Assembly (NCBI RefSeq): GCF_023343835.1
Contig: NC_064442.1
Coordinates: 19,330,501 to 19,394,500 of the forward strand
Origin: Lagopus muta
Taxonomy: Eukaryota; Chordata; Aves; Galliformes; Phasianidae
DNA: 64,000 nucleotides
Direction of reading: 5' to 3'
The translations under genes and the position numbers were made by a program. This document shows positions 769 through 45,000 of this stretch, one piece after another; position 1 is the first letter of the stretch; each line of letters begins with the position of its first letter. The notes beneath the pieces were generated by a model. It worked only from the letters and a program-made list of their open reading frames with translations, did no database searches and was not told where the DNA came from.

Positions 769-2384
769 TGTGAGCACTTGACGTGCCCATGTGCACTTCT
801 GAGTATTTGCCTGTTCTAATGGCACTGAGGAGCCCCACGTTTCTCCAGCTGCACAGCCCAATGCCAAGGGAGCATGGATAAGGAGCTTGGACAGCAGCCA
901 GACAAATTTAGAGCCTTGCAGTGATGGAGAGAGAGTAAAACAAAACAAAATACAGTCAGCATGGAAGTAATGGGTAGAGACTTTCCAAGGCGGGAGATGA
1001 AGGAGAGAATTTGATTGGGCAGAGAGCAGGAAATCTACTGAAATTAATGGGACTAATACTTGGAAACAGCAAGGTCCAGACTGTGGGCATCTCAAATTTG
1101 GACAGAGCTGCAGGGTGTATGAGTAGCAGCTGCAGGGAGAGGAGGGAAGATGATGGGCGGGGAGAGCAACCAGTCCTGACCCTAAGTCAAGGAAACTCTC
1201 CAGAAGCCCTCCAAGGGAAGGTTTTAAAGGCCAGGGCAGATAACAAACAAAAAGCCACTTGGAGCAAGATGGTGAGGCACAACCTAAATGACGAGCACTA
1301 GGTCAACTCGAGGATAGAAGTACATAGCCAGACTGTGAGTGGCCACAGCACTCTGCTGCCTGACGCATGGCTTGCAGGGCCTGGTCTGACTGCAGTGGTC
1401 ACCCTCTGCTCAGAAATATCCAGCCACTGAGTGATGCTACCAGAAGTGCCAGGCTGCAGCTGATGGAGGGGTGGGGACAGCAGCTTGCTCCACAGCCTGA
1501 GCCAGTTCAGCCCTTGCTCAGCCCTGGAGAACCATCCAGCACTGCTCTCTGGATAAGGATGCAGCCAAGTGCTGCTTGGATAAGCAAGAGGAATTGATTG
1601 TTTTAAAGCCAGCGTCAGGATTTCTGTCCAGAGGCAGAAGGGCACACAGTGCTGCAGCCAGGAAATGTCCCCGTGAAGCTGCTGCCGGATCAGTGCTCTC
1701 ACAAGTTGACCCAGCTTACCTTCAGGCAGATTTGAAAGGTCTTGTTCAGCCTGAGGTTCAGTCCTCACCTTTAATTTCAGCTCACATAATTGCCAGAAAA
1801 TTGAGTCCATCACAAAGTGAAAGTGTTTCAGAAAAGAAACTTTTTTTTCATAAAAACATATAGCAGAAAGGATTCCAATTCTTCCTGCTCTCCCACTGAC
1901 CATCCTGCTCCACCATTTCTATTTGACAAAAAATCCAGTGAATTTTTATTATTCACTAACAGTGTGATCAGCTGCTTAACAGGGAGCTTAATAATGGCAA
2001 TGAAACTCACCCTGCTGCTGAAGCTGAGGAATGGGCTCATTTCTGAGCCTGGTCCCCCGGGGCCGCGGTGCTTGCCATGGTGGGGAGCGCGTGGGGAAGC
2101 GCCGAAGAGGATGGCCGGAATGGATTCAGGCTGTGGGGATCGGAGCTCCCCGCCTGCGGGACCAAGGGGGTGGATGCTGAGCAAGAGGAGGAGAAGAGCT
2201 GTGCCAGGGCGTGGGGCTGGTTGTGGCACGTCTTTGTGGCTGAGTCATCTCTCCTGCCCTTCTTACATTCCCTGGCGGTGTCGCAGTGGGAATGCAGCAG
2301 CTCATGCTTGCCCTGGGTCCACCCTGAGCTCAGTAAAGCCCTGGAGCAACCCCTCTTTAACCCTAATCAAACTTTCTCTGGCAG
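769..2384. other. Non-coding stretch before DUOXA1-like exon 3
   Basis: No exon was recognised here. I looked for the conserved first-exon end (LPGIRGK) and second-exon block (RLFWLLRV) of DUOXA and did not find them on the + strand. An open minus frame at 1298-1903 and an open plus frame at 1817-2575 carry no recognisable domain. The part next to 2385 holds a good pyrimidine tract and acceptor (tctctggcag). Confidence 0.6.
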
Positions 2385-2519
2385 TTGTCCAGTTCACGGG
2401 GGACTGGGAGAGCGGCTGGGTGACAGCCAACACCTCCTACAAATCCTTCAGCCTCGCCGTGGTGAACGCGGACATTGGGCTGCACGTCGGCCTGGCAGGG
2501 GTGAACATCACACTGGTGG
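2385..2519 (+). CDS. DUOXA1: DUOXA1-like exon 3
   Basis: Acceptor tctctggcag ends at 2384 and donor GTGAGT starts at 2520. The exon encodes the first part of the extracellular loop (ESGWVTANTSYKSFS, then GVNITLV). It is 135 bases, the same length as exon 3 of the facing gene, with about 13 differences. Confidence 0.9.
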
Positions 2520-4305
2520 GTGAGTGCCATGTCCCTTTCTCTTCAGCCCCAGCTCTGCAGAGACCATGGCTATAGGGGGTCTCCAAGAGCTTTTTCGATG
2601 GCCTTGTTTTTACTGGAGGCTTCTGGACAGCCTCTTGTCATCGAGATGCTCCTGGCTGTCAGTGCCCATTCTATTGGGATGCAGCAGGACCTTAGTCCTC
2701 TTCCTCTGGCAGGAAACCCAGTGAATCAGGTCAACGAGACCATCAACTACAACGAGCACTTTGCCTGGAGCTTCGATGCAGACTACGACCACAGCTACAG
2801 CGAAGGCCTGGAGAAGGGGCTGCCCAGCCCCATCCTCTACGTGGCGGAGAAGTTCACCACACACAGCCCCTGCAACGTGCACAGGCAGTACCGCATCTCC
2901 AGCCACTACGCATCGGCCAGTCTCTGGTGAGGCCTTGGGTTGAGGTGGTGAGTGGTGGGTGGCGATTGCAAGTTGCTATATGGAGAGCCATGTGTGTGGA
3001 GGGGGCTCTCTGAGGTCCGCTTTCAGACCGCTGGCCCTGTGCAAGGAGCAAGAGCTCCTGGACCACAGCTGAAGGCTTCCCTTGTAACCTGGCTCCTGAG
3101 GCAAGTTCAGAGCTACTTCAAACAGCTTGAATCTACTTCTACAGGTGTCTCGGTGCCATGTGCTGCTCTCTGTGGTCTGCCCTGCACCACACTTAGGTGG
3201 GCAGGGCGCTGAGATGGTGTAGATGTGCAGTCTGTGCTTTTGCTTTCTGGACATAGCAGTATGAGCGTTGCACATCTCCCTGCTTAGCCTGGGAGACCAG
3301 GGATCACTCCAGCCTGACCACAGTTTCTTAACCTCATGCAGTGCAACCAAGAGCCCAGATCTCTTTTCCCACCTGGAAATCCTCATGTAGAGCATCCTAG
3401 TCAGTGGCACTTGCACATCTTGTCCATTGGTCTTCTCTTGTCTCTAGGGTGGCCTTTTGCACTTGGCTCATCTCCAACATGCTCTTCTCCATGCCTGTCC
3501 TAGTCTACGGAGGGTACATGATCCTGATCACAGGGGCCTTCATGATCTTCTCACTGCTCTCCTTCTCCACCGTGAGGAACTCCCTGGTGTGCCCAATCCA
3601 GTTTGGGACCACATCCCTGCAGATAGGCTATGGGGGATCTTTCTGGCTCACACTAGCAGTTGGTAAGTACATCAAGCTACTTTAGGTCCACCGCTATGAC
3701 CCCTGGGTGTGCAAGAGCCCCAGGGCTTTCTCTTCACCACTGGAGGTGAGGAGCTTGGGACTGCAGCCCTGTTTAGGCTTACCCTGTGTCTTGACACAGC
3801 GGCTCCCAGCAGAGATACAGAGAGGGCTGGCAGAACTGGGAGAAGCATCACTGTCTTGAGGGTGATGGAGAGATTTTTAGCTCCTGAGTTGCAGCAGAAG
3901 AATTGGGGATCAATTGGCTGAGTTTTAAGACCTGTTCTTGGATTTTATGGTGGTCGACACAGCAGCTGAAACCACCTCATAGAGTAGAAGGCCATCTTCT
4001 GTAAGAGAGGGTGTCCCTTGGTTCGAGGCCATTGGAGTATGGATATGGGGTGGGAAATGTGCTGACATTTACAGGATTGCTCACGGAGAGCATGTTGTTT
4101 TCCAGGCTTGCTCTGTTTTGTGGCTGGGATCACTGTTGTTGCACTGCACTACTTCAACTCTGACCTACTGAAAACTTTCTTTGATCTCCATGTGGACAAA
4201 GCAGAGGACTATCGAGAGATGACTGAAGTGTATGTCAACCTTCGGTTCATGAACAGTACTCTGTCTCCTCCTCAACCCTCCAAACTTACCCCTGATGACA
4301 TCTAG
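2385..4305 (+). CDS. DUOXA1: DUOXA1-like dual oxidase maturation factor, 5' exons missing from window
   Basis: Family knowledge: DUOXA proteins are five-pass ER membrane proteins that let DUOX NADPH oxidases leave the ER and work at the apical membrane. Seen here: four exons joined as 2385-2519, 2713-2926, 3448-3662 and 4106-4305, in consistent phase with GT-AG borders. They give 253 residues from VQFTGDWESGWV to LTPDDI and a stop. The extracellular loop has N-glycosylation sequons NTS, NIT and NET. Exon 5 reads MPVLVYGGYM, as in mammalian DUOXA1. Exons 1-2 were not found and may lie left of the window, so the start is unknown. It faces the DUOXA2-like gene tail to tail, as in mammals, and shares with it an identical tract across exon 4. 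The 1 versus 2 naming is moderately sure; membership of the DUOXA family is sure. Confidence 0.88.
2713..2926 (+). CDS. DUOXA1: DUOXA1-like exon 4 (gene-converted)
   Basis: Acceptor ctctggcag ends at 2712 and donor GTGAGG starts at 2927. It is 214 bases and encodes NPVNQVNETINYNEHF through RISSHYASASLW. The first 188 bases match exon 4 of the facing gene exactly; eight differences are crowded into the last 26 bases. Confidence 0.92.
3448..3662 (+). CDS. DUOXA1: DUOXA1-like exon 5
   Basis: Acceptor ttgtctctag ends at 3447 and donor GTAAGT starts at 3663. It is 215 bases and encodes two membrane segments: VAFCTWLISNMLFSMPVLVY, and a second through ITGAFMIFSLLSF. It is much more diverged from its partner exon than exon 4 is. 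Confidence 0.92.
4106..4305 (+). CDS. DUOXA1: DUOXA1-like exon 6 with stop codon
   Basis: Acceptor gttttccag ends at 4105. The exon finishes the last membrane segment (GLLCFVAGITVVALHYF) and gives a short cytosolic tail ending SKLTPDDI, with a TAG stop at 4303-4305. The tail is unrelated to that of the facing gene. Confidence 0.88.
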
Positions 4306-4848
4306 AAGAAAAGTTTTCCTACTCCTTACCTGAAGGCGGGCCTAAGAACACAGAGCACAGACCCTTCCTGATGTCTCTTGAGACTCGTCTATCCATCTAG
4401 GGGACTTTGAAGAGTGCATAAGTCCACGTTAGGATGAGGACTTGCTCAGAACTGCCTTTGCCATCCCTGATTGCCCGCTCTAGGACAAGGACAGCTTTGC
4501 AGTGAGCAAGCAGGCTGCAGGCAGTATAGCTCAGACCTCCAGCAACCTGAGCTGCACACTCACCTGGCTGAGGAGTAACCCCCACTCCTGCTCTATGCCC
4601 TGCCACAGCTTGGTGCAGGGGGTTTCTGATGGCCAGTTCCCATACCAGTGGGTGAGATTTCCCATAGTGATTTCTCTTTGAGGATGCTCACTACTCCAAT
4701 AGCCAGCAATCAAACACGCTCAGTCTTTCTTTTCCCAAGCACTGATGTCTAGTGTAGACCTTCAGATGTTCCTAGGAAAGCCAGGCACAGACCCAAACTC
4801 CCTCAGGCTGGATGCTGTGTGAGCCAGAGTATAAAAGATGGCTACAGA

Positions 4849-4854
4849 ATTAAA
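4849..4854 (+). terminator. Possible poly(A) signal ATTAAA of the DUOXA1-like gene
   Basis: ATTAAA lies 544 bases after the stop codon. A canonical AATAAA at 5160-5165 is the other candidate. The sequence alone cannot say which is used. Confidence 0.35.
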
Positions 4855-5159
4855 GATTAAGTAAATATACTGAGGAGCTTGCCAGGGGGAATGTGGTGAT
4901 GTGATTATTTTCACTTTCAGACTTGGGTTTTATTCGATAAGAATTGTAGCCTAACACGGGCCAAAAAGATGTCATGGGAAAGATGGGAGAGAGAAGAGTG
5001 CAATTACACCCATTCTCTTGGATGGGCTCTATTCAAGTGGAGCACACTTGGGCTGGCTGTGCTTATCACAAAATACAGCCTTGAGTCCCACCAGTGGCAT
5101 CCTTCCATGGGGTGGCTGCCCTGACGGAGGCACCCCCAGAAAGGATCAGATTCAGCATG

Positions 5160-5165
5160 AATAAA
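5160..5165 (+). terminator. Possible distal poly(A) signal AATAAA of the DUOXA1-like gene
   Basis: Canonical hexamer about 0.86 kb after the stop codon of the + strand gene and before any sequence assignable to the minus gene. Confidence 0.35.
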
Positions 5166-6117
5166 TGATGCCTTTGAGAAACTTTGGGGTTGTGTGGCCC
5201 CTGGGCTGGTCCTGCCTCTTCCACCCATTGCTGAACCCGGTTTCCCGGCTGAGCCAAGATGCTGTTGGACAATGAGACACAAAGTAATTGCCAGCAAAGC
5301 CTTGGCTCTCAGCCCAGTCTTTCTGATCCCATGCTACGCAGACCTGGCCTGTTGGACACAAGGAATCTGGCCAGACAGCCTGTGCCAGTAAACTGAGCAA
5401 GCACCACAAAATGTGCCTGGGGCTCTGCGAGGATCATGGTCCTCATGCCCAAAGGCACACAGTGCCCTGGGACATGTGGCCACCACACCACTTGGCAGGC
5501 ACCAGAGCTGCCCACTGACCTGCTGCCAGGATGGGCTGCAAATGGGGACACAGTGGGAAAGGCAGAGACTTATGAGGGCTGAATTTTCGTTCAATGGATA
5601 GAAAGCTTCTGTTTCACCTTGGATCTTTAGGGTGAAGCATCTCCTAGTAGCTGCCATAGGGCATCTGCTTCCTAGCTGAAGTTTTGAAAACTCAAGGAGT
5701 TCAATATGACATATTTCTAAATGCCTTAAGGTCCTTGTTGAAGTGCTTTCCGTCTGGAGAGGGATGGGACGAGTTACCATGCCTGAGCACCCCTTCCCTG
5801 AGGGTGCTGCACAATGGTCTTCCCTCTGCTGGTCTGGGGATTCTCTCATCAAGACCTCCTCCTGTCCAGGGCCACTCCAACCTTCCCATATCCTGGTTGA
5901 TTATTTGCTTGGGGATTCTCTGGTACTCTACTTACCATTTGCCCCTACTGCCTCGAGCTGATTAGCCACTGTCAGATGTCCTGTGAGGCCACAACAACGC
6001 TGTCACTTCTTCCATTTCCTATGATCATCATGTCAAAGGATCAGCATATCCCCAGCCTGTCAGCACTCAGAGGGATTCTTTTAATGACACGCAAGAGAAA
6101 GATCAGGTCCAGCTTTC

Positions 6118-6123
6118 TTTATT
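6118..6123 (-). terminator. Possible distal poly(A) signal of the DUOXA2-like gene
   Basis: The minus strand reads CTCAATAAAGAAAGC, a canonical hexamer about 0.9 kb beyond the stop codon. A nearer one sits at 6934-6939. If this distal site is used, the 34-base tandem array is in the 3' UTR. Confidence 0.4.
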
Positions 6124-6541
6124 GAGACAGAAGAGACAGTAAGTGAGTACAAAACAGAAAAATGTTGTTGCAAAGCCTGCACAGATTTAAAGGGATGCAA
6201 ACCTGAAATACACACCCTGCATGACCAAGGTACCTGCTAGCCACCAGCAGCCAGGAGGAGTTGGCCGCATCCACTGTGGGTCTGTAGGATTACATATTTG
6301 CATGCTCCGTAACAAGTGGGCAGCTAAGCAGCATGAAACCAGGTACTTCTAGGCACTCTCCTCCTGCAAACTGTTTACAGACAGTGACGGGGGAACCGGG
6401 GCATGCACTTCCATCCCCTCTTCCTCCTCTCCTTCCCACCCACCAAAACATTTTATCTTCCTTTCAGAAGGCCACAAGAGTCTTGGTAAGTCACATTTTG
6501 TGATCTTCAACTGATGTTTTTGCCTTTGACATCTGGTATGT

Positions 6542-6711
6542 ATCTTTGACATCCCGGGAGCATCCAAGGTTTAGGATCTCTGATATCTGGGAGGTCTCTA
6601 GGGTTTGGTATCTCTGACATGCAAGAATTCTGCAAGACTTGGTGCCTCCAACATTTAGGATGCCTCCAAGGTTTGGTACTTCCAACATTGAAGAAATCTC
6701 CAAGGTTTGTC
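6542..6711. repeat. Degenerate minisatellite, five units of 34 bases
   Basis: Five back-to-back units in exact 34-base register: 6542-6575, 6576-6609, 6610-6643, 6644-6677 and 6678-6711. Each starts like ATCTCTGACAT and ends like CCAAGGTTTGGT, with a variable middle. A weaker half unit may precede it. Units differ by roughly a third, so the array is old. It lies 0.3-0.5 kb after the DUOXA2-like stop codon. Confidence 0.85.
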
Positions 6712-6933
6712 AACATCCCGCTAATACGTGGGATTCCTTGCCAGGAATCCTTCACTCCAGACCAAGAGCAGGTGCTGAATACAGGGTACTTTAGTGCCCA
6801 CAGCTCTGCTTTCTTCTTCACCTGTTGTTGGGAAGAGCATTGTTGGGCAGAGTGGGCTTCTGGAGGCACCTTTTGGGGTAAGTGTGCTACTGAGTGTGTA
6901 GGGGTTGCTTCTCCTTTGGTTCATACTTATGTG

Positions 6934-6939
6934 TTTATT
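6934..6939 (-). terminator. Proximal poly(A) signal candidate of the DUOXA2-like gene
   Basis: The minus strand reads AATAAACACATAAG about 80 bases after the stop codon at 7020. Use of this site would give a very short 3' UTR and leave the tandem array outside the mRNA. Confidence 0.35.
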
Positions 6940-7019
6940 ATATATATTTGATTTCTCTCCAGTTTCTTTTGGTTTAGCTTCCACATCAAGGAGATCTCCA
7001 AGACCATGTTGCTTTTGCC

Positions 7020-7231
7020 TCACAGGTTGGTGGCTGTCACCTCACAGAGCTCACCCAAGGACACCATCAGTATGTCCTGCTCAGAGGAGCTGGACTCGGC
7101 TGGCAGGTGGGACTTTTCCCACCCATCTACTTCTCTCTTTCCCTCATCCAGGTTGAAAACAAGCTTCAGTTTCTGCGGGCGCACAGAGTTGAGAACAATC
7201 ACACCCAGCCCCAGCAGCAGGCAGAACAGCC
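7020..7231 (-). CDS. DUOXA2: DUOXA2-like exon 6 with stop codon
   Basis: Minus-strand acceptor tgtgtttcag ends at 7232. It encodes the end of the fifth membrane segment (GLFCLLLGLGVIVL) and a 50-residue acidic and serine-rich cytosolic tail ending EVTATNL, with a TGA stop at 7020-7022. Confidence 0.9.
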
Positions 7232-10200
7232 CTGAAACACACAGCATGGAGAGATGATGCATTGTCCCCAAATGCACTCCAGGCCCATCCAGCCACAGAC
7301 CTAGGGATGGGGACCAGAGGGGATAGAAGCCAATGGGATATGGCATCACATGGGAGGTCAAGGGAAGGGATTATTTCTGTTCCCAGTTTCCTACAGCAGC
7401 TCTACAACTGGGCTCTTCAGTACAAAAAGAAGTTAATAAGCTGCGGCAGAGGGCTAGACCGTTAGGTCTAGAGCCCACCATGTATGGGGAATGGTTGGAG
7501 GAGGTAGGTTTGTTTAGCCAGGAAAGGAGAAGCCTTCAGGGGGACCTAATTGCCACCTTCTGCCAATGAGTGGAATAGCCGTGGGACATCCCCGAGGGGC
7601 AGAAAGGACCATTCATGGTCCTGAAAGGCAAAGGGTTGATGCATGGGTACATCAACTAGAAGCCTGAACAAGGCCCTGGACAACCTGATGAGGCTTTGAC
7701 ATTAATACTGCTGCATGATCCTAGAAAGTCCTTCCAAACCAAGTCTCTCCCTGATTTTATGACTCGAGACACAGATGATTTTGGTCACTCATATGAGAGC
7801 AGATGAAGTACCGCTGAGGTACTGCAGGAATGGAGACCAAAAGCCCCAGCTAATCACTCACCTGTTGTTAATGTCAGCCAAAAAGATCTGCCGTAATCTG
7901 TTTTCAGGGAGGCTGGCCCAAACTGGATGGGACACTTTGGGATGTTCCTCACCGTGACAAAGAAGAGCAGTGAGAAAAGCATCAGCACGGCAGTGAGCAG
8001 GAGCATGTAGCCGCCATAAAGGAGGACGGTCATGGAGAAGAGCAGGGTAGAAATGAGCCAGGTGCATAAGGCCATCCTACAAAAGGATCACAAAACTGAG
8101 CTGAAAGCCCTGTACGTGGGCATGTCAGTTCCTGCAGTGGTGAAGAGGGCTCTTCATACCTGGGGATATTCAGCACTGAGCTACTTGAGACTCTGATATG
8201 TTTACTCTGCATAGGGGGCTCAAGTGGAGACCTCCAAAGGGCCCCTTTCAAATTGTACCTTTCTCTGGCCCTGTAGTCCTTCGTAACTGGCCAGCCCCAG
8301 GTGTTTCATATCTATTCAAAAGGAAAAGGGCAGCCAAGGAGACTTCTGTTGGAAGAATCACACCATGAGCCCTGCCCGCATCTGATTCAGCAGCTGCAGT
8401 GAGCACAGCTCTCAGCCTTGCCCTGTGCACAGGGCTTGGGTTTAGCTTACCGGGGAGGCGAGTCTAAGAAATTGTTCTGAATCCAAGAACAATAAGGCAG
8501 AATCACTTGAAATCAACGTCCTTGCCTTGAGATAACCAGTTCTCAATGACAGGGAGGTTTGGGCACAGCCTGTTATTTTTCTCGATCATGAAGAAGGAGA
8601 CAAGGGCTGGGCCTGGCTGCTGACACACCTGTAAGGAATGCCAAACCACTCTTCTCTGCAGCATCTTTCCCACGACCTCTGAGACATGTGGAGATGCTCT
8701 CAGACCTTTCTACCTACAGCTAAGCAGAAGCAGAACTTACCCCTTGTTCCGCCTTACCACAGCGTAATGGATGCGTAGCGGCTGGAGATGCGGTACTGCC
8801 TGTGCACGTTGCAGGGGCTGTGTGTGGTGAACTTCTCCGCCACGTAGAGGATGGGGCTGGGCAGCCCCTTCTCCAGGCCTTCGCTGTAGCTGTGGTCGTA
8901 GTCTGCATCGAAGCTCCAGGCAAAGTGCTCGTTGTAGTTGATGGTCTCGTTGACCTGATTCACTGGGTTTCCTGCCAGAGGAAGAGGACTAAGGTCTTCT
9001 CCCAGCCTTGGAGGCAACTCCAAGAGTTCCCAGTATGCATGCCCACTACCTGGGTGGACAGTGGCCAAACTTGTGTCCGATGTCTTTGTGTTGTGATACA
9101 CACTCACCCACCAGTGTGATGTTCACTCCTGCCAGGCCGATGTGCAGCCCAATATCCGCATTCACCACGGCACGGCTGAAGGATTTGTAGGAGGTGTTGG
9201 CTGTCACCCAGCCGCTCTCCCAGTCTCTGGTGAACTGTATGGCTGTGAAGATAATGGGTTAGCTATGTCCTGGTGAGCAGACCTCTTAGGGACAATGTAT
9301 GCTGGAAGGACATACTGTGAGTGTCACCAAATAACATTCCAAAGGCAAGGCCTGGTTTATAAGCAGGATTTTGAGCAGAGAAGCATGGTCCATGCATGTA
9401 CCTCCCCCAGCACCTACCTACTTCCACAGGAGCCCCATTTGGGATTGTTTCTCCACATGCTCAGCTCAGTTCCCAGTCCTAGAGGTAATGGGGCTTGTGA
9501 ACACCATCCAGGCACTGATCTTCTTCTAACTACAGCCAGTTTGTCTGGGTCTCCTGGCAGCTAGGAAACCAGTAGTGGTCCACCAACTTTTGGAGAGGAG
9601 GTTTCTGAGTGTCTGTGCTTCCTATCATTGCTAATCCAAGAAACCTTCAGACATAAGATTTGAATTTCAGGTAGTTCTGTGTGGAGCCAAGAGTTGGACT
9701 AGATGACCCTTGTGGGTCCCTTCCACCCTGAGATATTCTATGGTTGTCTTGCTGGGCTCAGATCCTGGGCACTGAACTGGATTGATCTTCCCTGTGAGCT
9801 CATCTTGCAAGATGGACTCAGCTGTTCTGTTCATCCTCCCACCTTGCTCCTCCTTGCTCTCCTTGTCTGTCCTTGCACTCCTTATCCCCACCTGTCTCTG
9901 AACACAATGAGACCCCCGTACTCACTGAGGACCACTGCTCCAATGAAGAGGCTTGTCACCACCCGCAGGAGCCAGAAGAGCCGCTACAAGTGGAAAGCAG
10001 AGTTGGGGATACACTCAGATTTTGTAACATGGAGCTCAGCTTTGATTAAGTCCCACCAGAAATAGACCCCTCTCTCACTTGGGGAGCAACCCCATGGGCT
10101 CCACAGGTGAGTAGGACAGGGGAAGGACCCATGGCTTGGGCATCCCTTCCATGTCATGGGCAGCATGGAGGCTGAGGCAGAGCAAGAAGGTCAGATCATC

Positions 10201-10948
10201 CCATTCGGGAAAACCGTGCCCATCCCCTTTCCGGGAAGGATATAGACACTCCCTTTAATAGTTCTGAGTTGAAGTTTCCACACTTATCCAAGCCTTATGT
10301 GCTTCCATGTGTTGGAAGCTGGCCACAGCTGGAGACAAAAGCAGTTTGGAGGTTTGCTGGGTGGGAAATGCCTTTCCAGCAGGCTCCTGGCAAGCACGGG
10401 TGGTGGTGTAGGGCTAGGTAAGTTTGCCAGGCATCCCCAGGGGGCTCAGTAAGTGGTGCTGAGGCATGCACACTGCACACCCTCAGTTTTTTTGGAGATT
10501 CAGGAAGGTGGAGCAAGCCCTTTGTGCCTCACCCAGTGAAATCATTCAGGCTAATCTAGCTAGGAGCTTGCCAAGCTCAGATCTGAGCCGATTGTAAATT
10601 TGGGGTGGTGAAGTCTGGCCTCTCCAGCATGGGAGCTGAGCTGGAGCTCATCGCTGTATCTGAGATCCCTCAGACCCAGACATCAGCAGGTTCCTGCCCC
10701 ATAGGCACATTAGCTCCCCAGGCCTGCCGTAAATGCAGGGAAGGAGGTGGCACTCAGGCTCTACCCAACACAGGGCTGAGTTCCCCTAGCCCTCCACTTA
10801 CCCCTTTGCCCCGGATGCCTGGCAGGATGATGATGGAAGTGACCAGTGCAGAGAGGAAGACGGAGGCAATGATGGCCCAGGTGGTGTCAAAGGGGAAGAA
10901 AGCGTTGGTGCCAGGGTAGAAGGGGAAGGAGCCATCCCATAGAGTCAT
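7020..10948 (-). CDS. DUOXA2: DUOXA2-like dual oxidase maturation factor, complete
   Basis: Role known for the family: ER membrane partner needed for folding, glycosylation and export of a DUOX oxidase. Six exons (minus strand) at 10802-10948, 9926-9983, 9108-9242, 8758-8971, 7862-8076 and 7020-7231 total 981 bases in unbroken phase, 326 residues; human DUOXA2 is 320. Membrane segments lie near 23-45, 50-70, 186-205, 208-228 and 248-275. Loop sequons are N84, N109 and N121. The start MTLWDGSFPFYP and the end TATNL resemble human DUOXA2 (MTLWNGVLPFYP, ITTNL). FPFDTT and LPGIRGK are closer to DUOXA1, so the protein is mosaic. The start codon was chosen because it matches the family N-terminus. 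No DUOX gene was recognised upstream to the right. Confidence 0.92.
7395..7765 (+). mobile_element. Old CR1 3'-end fragment in DUOXA2-like intron 5
   Basis: The text GGAAAGGAGAAGCC...GGGGGACCTAATTGC followed by a diverged tail resembles the 3' region of CR1 on the + strand. It is strongly diverged and lies antisense to the host gene, inside intron 5. Borders are approximate. Confidence 0.55.
7862..8076 (-). CDS. DUOXA2: DUOXA2-like exon 5
   Basis: Acceptor ttttgtag ends at 8077 and donor GTGAGT starts at 7861. It is 215 bases and encodes MALCTWLISTLLFSMTVLLY and the following membrane segment, then CPIQFGPASLKTDYGRSFWL. Same length and phase as exon 5 of the facing gene. Confidence 0.93.
8758..8971 (-). 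CDS. DUOXA2: DUOXA2-like exon 4 (gene-converted)
   Basis: Acceptor ctctggcag ends at 8972 and donor GTAAGG starts at 8757. It encodes NPVNQVNETINYNEHF through RISSRYASITLW. It is base-for-base identical to the partner exon for its first 188 bases, and so is the intron end before it. Confidence 0.93.
9108..9242 (-). CDS. DUOXA2: DUOXA2-like exon 3
   Basis: Acceptor cttcacag ends at 9243 and donor GTGAGT starts at 9107. It encodes TIQFTRDWESGWVTANTSYK through GVNITLV, with the first two glycosylation sequons of the extracellular loop. Confidence 0.92.
9668..9745 (+). mobile_element. CR1 3'-terminal fragment in DUOXA2-like intron 2
   Basis: The text TTGGACTAGATGACCC...GGTCCCTTCCA...ATTCTATGG is the characteristic end of CR1, including one copy of its terminal ATTCTATG repeat. 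Only about 80 bases are present. Confidence 0.75.
9926..9983 (-). CDS. DUOXA2: DUOXA2-like exon 2
   Basis: A 58-base exon with acceptor ccacttgtag and donor GTGAGT. It encodes RLFWLLRVVTSLFIGAVVL, the second membrane segment, which closely matches the mammalian RLFWLLRVVTSLFIGA block. Confidence 0.93.
10802..10948 (-). CDS. DUOXA2: DUOXA2-like exon 1 with start codon
   Basis: ATG at 10948 opens MTLWDGSFPFYPG; the exon continues through the first membrane segment to LPGIRGKG and donor GTAAGT at 10801. Length is 49 whole codons. The match to the family N-terminus fixes the start. Confidence 0.9.
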
Positions 10949-11692: not shown

Positions 11693-11741
<49 letters not shown>

Positions 11742-41496: not shown

Positions 41497-42021
41497 CTAA
41501 GTCTTAACAGACTTTGAATGATTGTTCTGAGAGGTGCTACGAGGACCCTCCACACCACACGTCTGCCTGTGCTCACAAAGAGCTGAGTCAGTTTTGCACT
41601 CTTTGCCTTCCAGGCTTTCCTCTTCCGCCATAGTGTTCATCTCGCCATTATACCCCTCGTGTCCGTTCTCATTCGTCTCTGCTCGTAGCTTCTCCCTCTC
41701 CTCTTCTCCCTCCTCCTGCTCCTCCTCATCCTCTTCTTCCTCCTCTTCCTCCTCATCTTTTACTTTGTGAACAATGAAGAGGTGTCTGTTCAGAGAGATC
41801 TGAGATGTGTAACACAAGCCGCAGAACAAGCACTGATACGTGGAGCTGTCTGTCTTGTGCTGAGGTATGTGCTCCTGGAACTCAGTACTGACGTCTGTTG
41901 CAAACCCACATTTTGCACATTTCCAGTGCGCTTTCAGTTTTTTGGCCGGCGGTGCGTCTGAACCTGCAGCAGTCCCTGCCTGCCCCACATCGTTCGTCAT
42001 CATCCTCTTTGGAGATCTCGC
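41497..42021 (-). CDS. ZNF592: ZNF592 last coding exon
   Basis: Acceptor tttttttaag ends at 42022. It encodes [16 protein letters not shown], two fingers ([17 protein letters not shown], then [17 protein letters not shown]), a glutamate-aspartate tract coded by GAG/GAA repeats (41695-41757), and a hydrophilic tail ending HSKSVKT then TAG. Confidence 0.92.
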
Positions 42022-45000
42022 CTTAAAAAATAAGATTAACAAGTTACTTCATCGTTTGAGCCCACAGAAGAATAAGTCTTAGTTTGTCGAATCCCACACA
42101 TACACATGAAGGCACCTGAGGTGAATACACACAGGTATTCTGTCACAAACTAAACAGTGGCATGCCTGGGGGCTCCCCTCGCACTGCCTTCCCTGTTGAT
42201 ACCCAAACACCTTGAGGTTGCAGCAATGCCTCCTCTGCCCCCTGTCACAATTTGCAGGATGTCAGCTGCTATCCTGCAAGGCGAGATGGGAGCTCTGGGA
42301 GGAGCCAGCAAGGCAGAAAAACCATGGGATGGAGAAGCTGAAACGTCTTCCCCTCTACTCTGCCTTTTTCCTCACGCCACCTCTCACAGCCTCATGCCCT
42401 GTACTGCACCATCCTGCAGCACGGTCTCCTCCTGTGAGGACGGCTCGACCACGTGTCCCTTTGTGTCATTTTGCTATCTCCCCATCCAGCAGCACTGCAC
42501 AGCCTTTGTTTTGCATACAGTTTGGCTTGTATCTGGAACACAGCTAGAGCGGTGTGCAGCCAGCTCTCAGCTGCAGAGCTCTGCACGGGGGAAGCGGCCA
42601 CCAGCTCACAGAATTCCAGATTTCCCTTTCTCCCTGCCTGGGATCACAAACAGAGAAGGGTCTTGGTTGCAATCCCTCAGTGCTACGGGACTGGGGACAG
42701 ATAAATAGAGACAGATTTTCCTTATTGCTTCTGTTTTTAAACTGACTGGAACAAGGAGCTCAACCTGCCAACCTTCCGCTCCAAACCAGTCCAAAATAAC
42801 ATCAGTTGAACGGTTACAATTGTTGGAAAAAAATGGCACAGTCCCACTGCAGAGGAATGCAGTGCTTACATGTAACAGATCTAGTAGGAGCTAAACCAGA
42901 AACCTTTGTGCAAGTAGTAACAAAAACACGAGGGAGAAAGCAGAAAAAATGTACCAGACTCTCATACCTCAAGGAAACTGTGCAGTGGTATGGGGAGAAC
43001 GAGGGTAAAAACAAACCCTAATTAGTTCTGGTTACAAAGTGGTCCGAAAAAGGCCAGTAAACACAGGGCCGTATGTTCAAAACCATCTTGAAAAACGCAA
43101 GATGCGTTGCCCCAGTGCTGCTGCAGCTCAGCTGCACTTTCAGTTCAGATCACGACACTGCTAGAAACAAACTAGATGGAATTTGGAGAACAGGAGGGAA
43201 ATCTGCCATATTTCAAAGCAAGAGGGCTTCACTGCCACCAATACCACTCGTTTTCTGCCCCGTGTGGACAGCTACTTGCCAGATACATCTATTTTTGAAT
43301 GAAAATGTATGAGTTACTTCTGCTGTGTCTCTCTCTGGGGCTTTTGCTTTGGCCATCTGGGATAAGTCTGGGTTTTTGATGCCGTGCATGAGGCTGATGT
43401 GATTCTCCAGCATGAACGGCTGAGGAAATGTCTGATTTTCATCTGTGCAGTACCTTGGAAATAAATACAAAACAAAGAAAATTTATTAGAGGAAATGCCC
43501 CACTGTTCTTTCATCCAAACAGCTCTTCGTTATGCGCCAAACCAATAGGTGTCATAGGAGACAGAAGTTGTTGAGTAATGCACTATTAAATTACCAAAAG
43601 AGACAGGAAATCACCATTTTACTAATAAAATATTATCCCTGACAGAAATCCATGGAAGTTTACCGCAGTAAGGACGAGCAAGAACAAAAGTAGGGCACGT
43701 ATTATTTACAGCACAGCACTTAATGAATACAGGGATGACTGGAGATCAGGCCCGCTGTGATACACGCCGCAGAAGCACCAGGTAAGTAATCAAGACGAAA
43801 AAAGAACAGGAGAAAAGCAGCTTTCAGGAGAGCAATGCACGGGGAGACCTCATTTTGTGTGCAACGAGGAGGGGCCCTGCAGGTCCCACTACCAGTGCAG
43901 TATCACATCCACAGGACCTTGTTTATCATGGCACACTTGAAATTCTTACAAAACCTCTCAACTTCCAGCCCACGTGTCAAAAGCACTCACAAATGCATCA
44001 TTTATGTGGAACTAAATACATGAAAACCCAGAAGGACCTAAAAGCTGCCAGAAACGACACTGAAGCTTCAGAAGGAGATGTGAAATGGAAGAGCCAGCTA
44101 TTAACTTGCCCTCTTGGACGACCAAGGTCTACTGGAAATAAGCACCAGGAATATAAACCACCCCTCTGCAGCATGGCCAGGTGCAAAGAGCACTCGGAAA
44201 GCGGTCAGGAAAGCCAAGGTTGACTTTGTACTCTTCTGCTGACCGCCAGTGTGACGTGGGGAAGCTCCACGAGCTGGGCATCAACCCGAGTGGTGAGGCA
44301 AGGAACATCGTACCTCTCTGCAATGCACAAATTGCAGCTGAAACACAGGCAGCAGGGGATGAAAAGCAGCAAATCGAGGGTGAAGCAGATCTGGGAGACA
44401 AAGGCCTTTTTTAACAGGAGAGAAAAAGGTTTCTACTGATCTTCCAGCTTCTCCACTAGATGGAAAAACAACGATCAGTAATGATGTTAAAACACAGATG
44501 TAGTCACCGAGTATTTCTGTTGTGTTTTTTTTTTTAAACAGGAATTGCTCAGATGATAAATCAGTATTTAATAATGATGGGATTTTTCTCCTTCAAGGAG
44601 GCAAGAGGAGGTTATTAAGTGGTATTTATCAAAAATAAACATGCTGAAAATCAAGTGTTCCAGACAGTTCATACCTAAGACTGGGAAAATGAGAGCAAGG
44701 TCTGAGCACAAGAACCAAGTGAATTATGAAAGAAAATGCATAAAACATGAGAATGCCTTGCAGTTTGTTCTAATTTGGAATTCTTTTTGTGTGAATAGCT
44801 AAAAGATGCTTTCCTAATTACACCAGTGACAAACTTGGCAGGAGGGAGCTTAAGCAAGTCCTCCATCACTGCTTTCACCCTACAAAGTTAACGCAAGGAT
44901 GAGACCCTAAGCAGGGCAGGGCAAGAAGGGGAAATCACAGCTCGAAATGTTAGAAGCAAGAGAGTAACTACAAGACAGCACACCTGGAGCCACAGGAATA

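Follow-up and report, generated by a model that had tools for sequence, protein, structure and literature searches.

A 64,000-nucleotide stretch of the genome of the galliform bird Lagopus muta (RefSeq assembly GCF_023343835.1, NC_064442.1, positions 19,330,501 to 19,394,500 of the forward strand; hereafter the window, in whose coordinates positions are given unless prefixed C13, for the contig) contains, apart from two exons just upstream, an inverted pair of genes for maturation factors of the dual oxidase DUOX. Both genes, DUOXA2 on the (+) strand and DUOXA1 on the (-) strand, are intact, with open frames and GT-AG introns, and they lie tail to tail. They very probably represent an old pair in which the exons for the claudin-like ectodomain have been overwritten repeatedly by interlocus gene conversion. 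The most recent trace is a tract of 217 bases without any difference between the genes, made up of the last 25 bases of intron 3 and the first 192 bases of exon 4 (2688..2904, +, in DUOXA2; 8780..8996, -, in DUOXA1). A preliminary description of the window had recognized this island, including its 25 intronic bases, but had placed its exonic end 4 bases short, at 188; likewise, the 8 differences that it allotted to the last 26 bases of exon 4 are indeed 8 (of 214 sites; 96.3% identity overall), and all lie in the last 22.

The limits of the island are sharp. Exons 1 and 2 differ at 65 of 147 and 27 of 58 sites (55.8% and 53.4% identity; 92 of 205 together), exon 3 at 13 of 135 (90.4% identity) and exon 5 at 58 of 215 (27%; 73.0% identity), the last two agreeing with the earlier estimates of about 13 sites and about a quarter. 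In 30-base bins of coding sequence, differences drop from 16 (bases 181-210) to 3 (211-240), number 0-4 per bin as far as base 330, are absent from 331 to 510, and climb from 1 (511-540) to 10 (541-570). The identity stops inside exon 4, at codon 178, while the frame continues. A nucleotide comparison of 2000-4800 with the reverse of 6500-9600 produced four matches: one over the tract and its edge, one over exon 3 and its donor site, one over exon 5, and one of 17 bases with E 0.088. In the same comparison the introns otherwise, including the rest of intron 3, showed no match between the genes; nor did the exon 6 tails (7020-7231 and 4106-4305) match each other at the nucleotide level. Chance was rejected as the cause of so long a run: coding exons 1-5, aligned over 769 sites with 171 differences, contain an unbroken identity of up to 211 bases, whereas 20,000 shufflings of the differences produced none longer than 60; when 100,000 shuffles were restricted to exons 3-4, none reached 192. 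Searching the genome with 211 bases of the tract (2690-2900) returned two places, which are these two genes (a repeat count that is a lower bound), and the DUOXA profile matched at one locus only; on these grounds both a third copy and a recent re-duplication were rejected. Searches for relatives gave 6 pattern matches in viral contigs and 54 in bacterial and archaeal genomes, none of which was confirmed.

Could such identity reflect constraint on the encoded proteins? The preliminary description had argued that it could not, and the silent sites bear this out. Silent differences amount to 32.7 in 52.2 sites for exons 1-2, 4 in 29.2 for exon 3 from residue 75, 0 in 37.7 for the exon 4 tract and 29 in 54 for exon 5, corresponding to a divergence per silent site (dS) of about 1.35 in exons 1-2 and about 0.94 in exon 5. 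Where the two proteins share an amino acid with more than one codon, the codons are equal in 63 of 63 cases in the tract, compared with 38 of 71 outside it (exons 1-2 and residues 185-256), a contrast with a probability of 8e-18 if codons are independent. Protein constraint fails as an explanation, because silent and intronic sites are identical as well. GC-biased conversion was also considered, but the GC content of third codon positions (GC3: 56/64 in the tract against 105/140 in DUOXA2 exons 1-2 and 5, p = 0.04) gave a weak signal that was not used; GC3 in DUOXA2 exon 3 is as high as in the tract (0.87).

Exon-by-exon trees provide the second line of evidence. They contained five sequences (the two bird genes, human and mouse DUOXA1, and human DUOXA2), so that the comparison is of bird with human and mouse; the segments were short (27-103 residues), making p values approximate. 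Human DUOXA1 was taken from PDB alignments and human DUOXA2 is a provisional sequence, which fits all 14 residue positions checked, 5 of them in exon 4, that three papers name (PMC5096480, PMC6098846, PMC6588112). Across exons 1-2, human DUOXA1 shares its residue with bird DUOXA1 alone at 21 sites, compared with 3 for bird DUOXA2 alone (p = 0.0003, independently of human DUOXA2), which makes the (-) gene the nearest to human DUOXA1 and the (+) gene the other paralogue. From this resemblance, it follows that the gene pair predates both the bird-mammal split and the tract. Site patterns (by gene:by species:crossed) are 6:0:0 in exon 1 and 3:0:0 in exon 2 (9:0:0 for the two), and the best tree of exons 1-2 groups the sequences by gene, both alternatives having p = 0.001 in the approximately unbiased (AU) test. 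In exons 3 and 4, by contrast, grouping by species is favoured (AU p for the by-gene tree 0.001 and 5e-14, respectively), with patterns of 0:1:0 for the six residues that open exon 3, 0:5:0 for the rest of it, 0:21:0 for the exon 4 tract and 0:0:0 for the exon 4 tail; exon 3 from residue 75 together with the tract gives 26 sites by species and none of either other kind (by-gene AU p = 0.00009). Given the intronic bases in the tract, the silent identity, and the grouping of exon 4 by species against that of exons 1-2 by gene, gene conversion between the tail-to-tail copies, about 5.9 kb apart, is the best explanation, as the preliminary description had proposed. The length of 217 bases supports it, being within the range of 50 to several hundred bp at which most conversion tracts are estimated (PMC3924818).

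The preliminary description had envisaged a single conversion centred on exon 4, and this is too simple. In exon 3 an older converted block begins abruptly at the 18th base, after 17 exonic bases that lie outside it, and extends to the donor site (2402..2526, +, in DUOXA2, within a BLAST island of 93.4% identity at 2390-2526; 9101..9225, -, in DUOXA1). Its coding part, of 118 bases, contains 6 differences; in the comparison between blocks it has 6 differences in 117 sites, compared with 0 in 192 for the exon 4 tract (Fisher p = 0.003; for silent sites only, 4/29 against 0/38, p = 0.03), and this greater divergence implies more than one conversion event. At what we take to be neutral rates for birds (1.2, 1.9 and 3e-9 per site per year), conversion of exon 4 has a 95% upper age limit of 20, 13 and 8 million years (My), and the exon 3 event falls near 63, 40 and 25 My (limits 7-171 My over all); on these assumed rates, the exon 4 conversion would be at most some 8-20 My old. 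Exon 5 may reflect a still earlier conversion, or slow evolution. We suppose that a break or gap in one gene would have been repaired from its inverted partner, some 5.9 kb distant, by copying that reached 25 bases into intron 3 on one side and stopped 22 bases short of the end of exon 4 on the other. The latest such event would be that over exon 4, with no difference accumulated since in its 217 bases, following an earlier one over exon 3 and perhaps an older one still over exon 5, while exons 1-2 (the N-terminal peptide and transmembrane segments TM1-TM2) would have been spared, keeping the genes distinct; exon 6 (the tail) is unalignable between them at the DNA level. The exchange seems to be ancient and repeated, and limited to the central part of the proteins.

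Several points weigh against this account, particularly in its simplest, one-event form. The expectation of the preliminary description that exon 4 would cluster by species was borne out, for bird against human and mouse, but its companion expectation, that exon 5 would cluster by gene, was not: exon 5 leans towards grouping by species (1:6:1; by-gene AU p = 0.054), and in it human DUOXA1 matches only bird DUOXA1 at 6 sites and only bird DUOXA2 at 8. The exon 6 tree (1:0:0) settles neither grouping, the by-gene tree being better by a non-significant 1.5 log units, with human DUOXA1 matching only bird DUOXA1 at 6 sites and only bird DUOXA2 at 3. There is one bird genome, so that the species grouping rests on bird versus human and mouse; human DUOXA2 is represented by the provisional sequence; and the identity is that of the assembled sequence, in which an artefact of assembly or polishing would be a remote possibility.

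The behaviour of exons 5 and 6 raises the question of whether, besides conversion, there has been crossing-over between the inverted exon 3-4 islands, inverting the 5.9-kb interval and swapping exons 5-6 between the genes. Inverted repeats allow this, and it would accommodate the lack of a gene signal in exon 5, the higher score of bird DUOXA2 exon 6 with human DUOXA1 (62) than with the provisional human DUOXA2 (54), and the C-terminus of bird DUOXA1, -TNL, which we take to be that of human DUOXA2 as well (bird DUOXA2 ends in -DDI). We nevertheless think it improbable, as exon 6 leans, if weakly, towards no exchange, and as bird DUOXA1 exon 6 scores highest with human DUOXA1 (71, against 57 with the provisional human DUOXA2). 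An artefact, in which two slightly different exons became identical because reads from a single copy served for the two, would be in keeping with an identity known from the assembly alone, and short reads wholly inside a 217-base repeat would not be placeable. It is, however, very improbable: the copies have distinct flanks on both sides within one contig, the window is free of N, the assembly comprises 1.03 Gb in 165 contigs, and reads could have separated the copies had these differed; moreover, exon 3 follows the same tendency, with 90% identity, and human DUOXA1 likewise resembles the provisional human DUOXA2 closely in exon 4, so that homogenization is not specific to this assembly. Purifying selection on the protein together with RNA or DNA elements such as splicing enhancers, which might be invoked for a conserved interaction domain whose 25 adjoining intronic bases include the splice acceptor, is scarcely credible as a means of holding exon 4 identical without exchange, since every degenerate codon in the tract is equal, the identity ends in mid-frame, the domain is not frozen (of 64 residues in the bird tract, 27 are different from human DUOXA1 and 30 from human DUOXA2), and its 21 informative sites are all alike within species and different between them, with none patterned by gene.

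The gene models on which these comparisons rest place DUOXA2 exons 1 and 2 upstream of the window (C13:19329869-19330015, of which C13:19329896-19330015 was also matched in a second search, and C13:19330155-19330212) and exons 3-6 at 2385..2519, 2713..2926, 3448..3662 and 4106..4305 (with stop), all (+). DUOXA1, on the (-) strand, has exons 1-6 at 10802..10948, 9926..9983, 9108..9242, 8758..8971, 7862..8076 and 7020..7231 (with stop). Exons 1-5 have the same lengths in both genes (147, 58, 135, 214 and 215), exon 6 being 200 bases in DUOXA2 and 212 in DUOXA1. In each gene the last base of exon 4 is coding base 554, which is also the position given for the exon 4/intron 4 junction of human DUOXA2 (PMC5096480). 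All seven listed matches to the Pfam family DuoxA (PF10204) exceed the curated cut-off and lie at this single locus, the other exons falling outside that listing; a PDB search returned mouse and human DUOXA1 and no DUOXA2, and cannot by itself discriminate the paralogues. An imperfect 34-base tandem repeat (3.2 copies, 6602-6709) occupies the 3' flank of DUOXA1, and a run of 45 T (11696-11740) lies about 750 bases upstream of its exon 1. Elsewhere, positions 1-606 align over 655 bases, at about 71% identity, with sequence some 32 kb upstream, and look like an interspersed repeat. In the genome at large, the lysozyme gene is nearest, over 80 residues and among the 60 of 70 matches to solved structures that were listed, to turkey egg-white lysozyme, as suits a galliform-like bird. 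A Pfam scan of 10 of the 42 window frames of at least 130 residues gave a match for one of the ten; a C2H2 zinc finger frame (41500-42048, -; PF16622, E 3e-18) is probably part of a further gene.

What do the converted exons encode? In the human DUOX1-DUOXA1 complex, the TM2-TM3 loop forms a claudin-like domain that makes extensive contacts with both DUOX1 subunits, and the N-terminal peptide of DUOXA1 makes a contact of its own (PMC7794343). The converted blocks cover residues 75-177, most of the TM2-TM3 loop (the bird loop limits being set by alignment), which fits the earlier suggestion that the homogenized loop touches the DUOX partner; the N-terminal peptide, TM1-TM2 and the tail lie outside them. 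Conversion over these residues leaves one docking domain in both paralogues with ends that are free to differ, and selection may favour such sharing.

The partner itself appears to be single. An animal peroxidase profile had 33 matches in the genome, five of them at C13:19316498-19321587 (-), a place that lies upstream of DUOXA2 and is oriented the other way; the others, on C2, C8, C19, C22 and C23, are presumably peroxidasin, thyroid peroxidase, myelo/lactoperoxidase-like and prostaglandin synthase genes. One of five matches to an NADPH-binding profile is at the same DUOX locus (C13:19306999-19307616). Among solved structures, a reading frame from this locus is nearest to Dual oxidase 1, none of the eight rows being DUOX2, so that DUOX1 and DUOX2 are not told apart; the provisional name DUOX2 follows from its head-to-head place with DUOXA2. 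No DUOX-like exon was found beside DUOXA1 when the 59.8 kb upstream were compared with the window by blastn and tblastx, or in tblastn of eight frames. The possibility of a DUOX1 relic there was rejected: the blastn and tblastx matches were judged to be interspersed repeats (under names that are our assumption) and noise, and tblastn of the eight DUOX-region frames gave 12 rows with a best E of 0.058, although a weak relic could escape queries that run from stop to stop and include intron sequence. Chicken has likewise been described as having duplicated NIP genes (DuoxA1 and DuoxA2) and a single Duox, where mammals and frog have two Duox (PMC1940245). It seems that DUOX1 was lost and that DUOXA1 outlived its neighbour, with an assembly gap as the alternative. 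As one DUOX was detected, both maturation factors probably serve one enzyme, to which they would offer nearly the same docking domain.

A parallel is suggested by mammals. Over the tract in exon 4, human DUOXA1 and the provisional human DUOXA2 are alike at 55 of 64 residues, compared with 37 and 34 of 64 for human versus bird; in exon 1, the human pair (DUOXA2 again provisional) is alike at 17 of 44 residues, compared with 26 of 44 and 29 of 49 for each with its own bird counterpart. If rates are alike and conversion had been confined to birds, the human pair would be no closer in exon 4 than human and bird are; this exon was therefore probably homogenized in the mammalian line too, and, insofar as the provisional DUOXA2 is a guide, conversion is probably recurrent in amniotes. 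It is possible, though we put it forward only tentatively, that amniote-wide recurrent conversion keeps the docking domain common, selected to fit the same DUOX surface, while the spared N-terminus and tail set paralogue-specific function, leaving galliforms, without DUOX1, with two isoform-like sets of heads and tails on a shared domain. More generally, the pattern suggests that the docking domain is interchangeable and that the N-terminus and tail carry paralogue identity. Whole-protein trees of DUOXA genes can mislead, as the most conserved block records conversion and not descent. With one DUOX and two DUOXA, galliforms would be a natural test of the role of the second maturation factor; and an exchange of exon 4 between human DUOXA1 and DUOXA2, if it occurs, might affect the calling of DUOXA2 variants from short reads in congenital hypothyroidism.

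In searches of openly licensed papers, we found no account of gene conversion in DUOXA1/DUOXA2, nor any of concerted evolution of DUOXA or of DUOX1 loss in birds in connection with DUOXA1. The DUOXA1/DUOXA2 (NIP1/NIP2) pair of PMC1940245 is the same two genes, and the term 'gene conversion' does not occur in that text. The mechanism is well known, and the example in DUOXA genes is new; what takes it beyond the routine is the near restriction to a docking domain, the repeated rewriting, the likely mammalian parallel and the single DUOX detected. Like interlocus gene conversion in general (PMC3924818), it shows abrupt local identity between diverged paralogues on the same chromosome, with a length in the usual range. 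It departs from the usual case in the inverted orientation and age of the pair, whose dS approaches or exceeds 1 both in exons 1-2 and in exon 5; in addition, copying keeps close to one domain, and a neighbouring exon was rewritten earlier. Another likeness is with the avian TLR1A/B and TLR2A/B genes, which show concerted evolution limited to one domain: in both systems, one domain is homogenized while the rest of the protein diverges, but in the TLR genes it is the signalling domain, whereas in DUOXA, a maturation factor, it is the extracellular domain that binds the partner.

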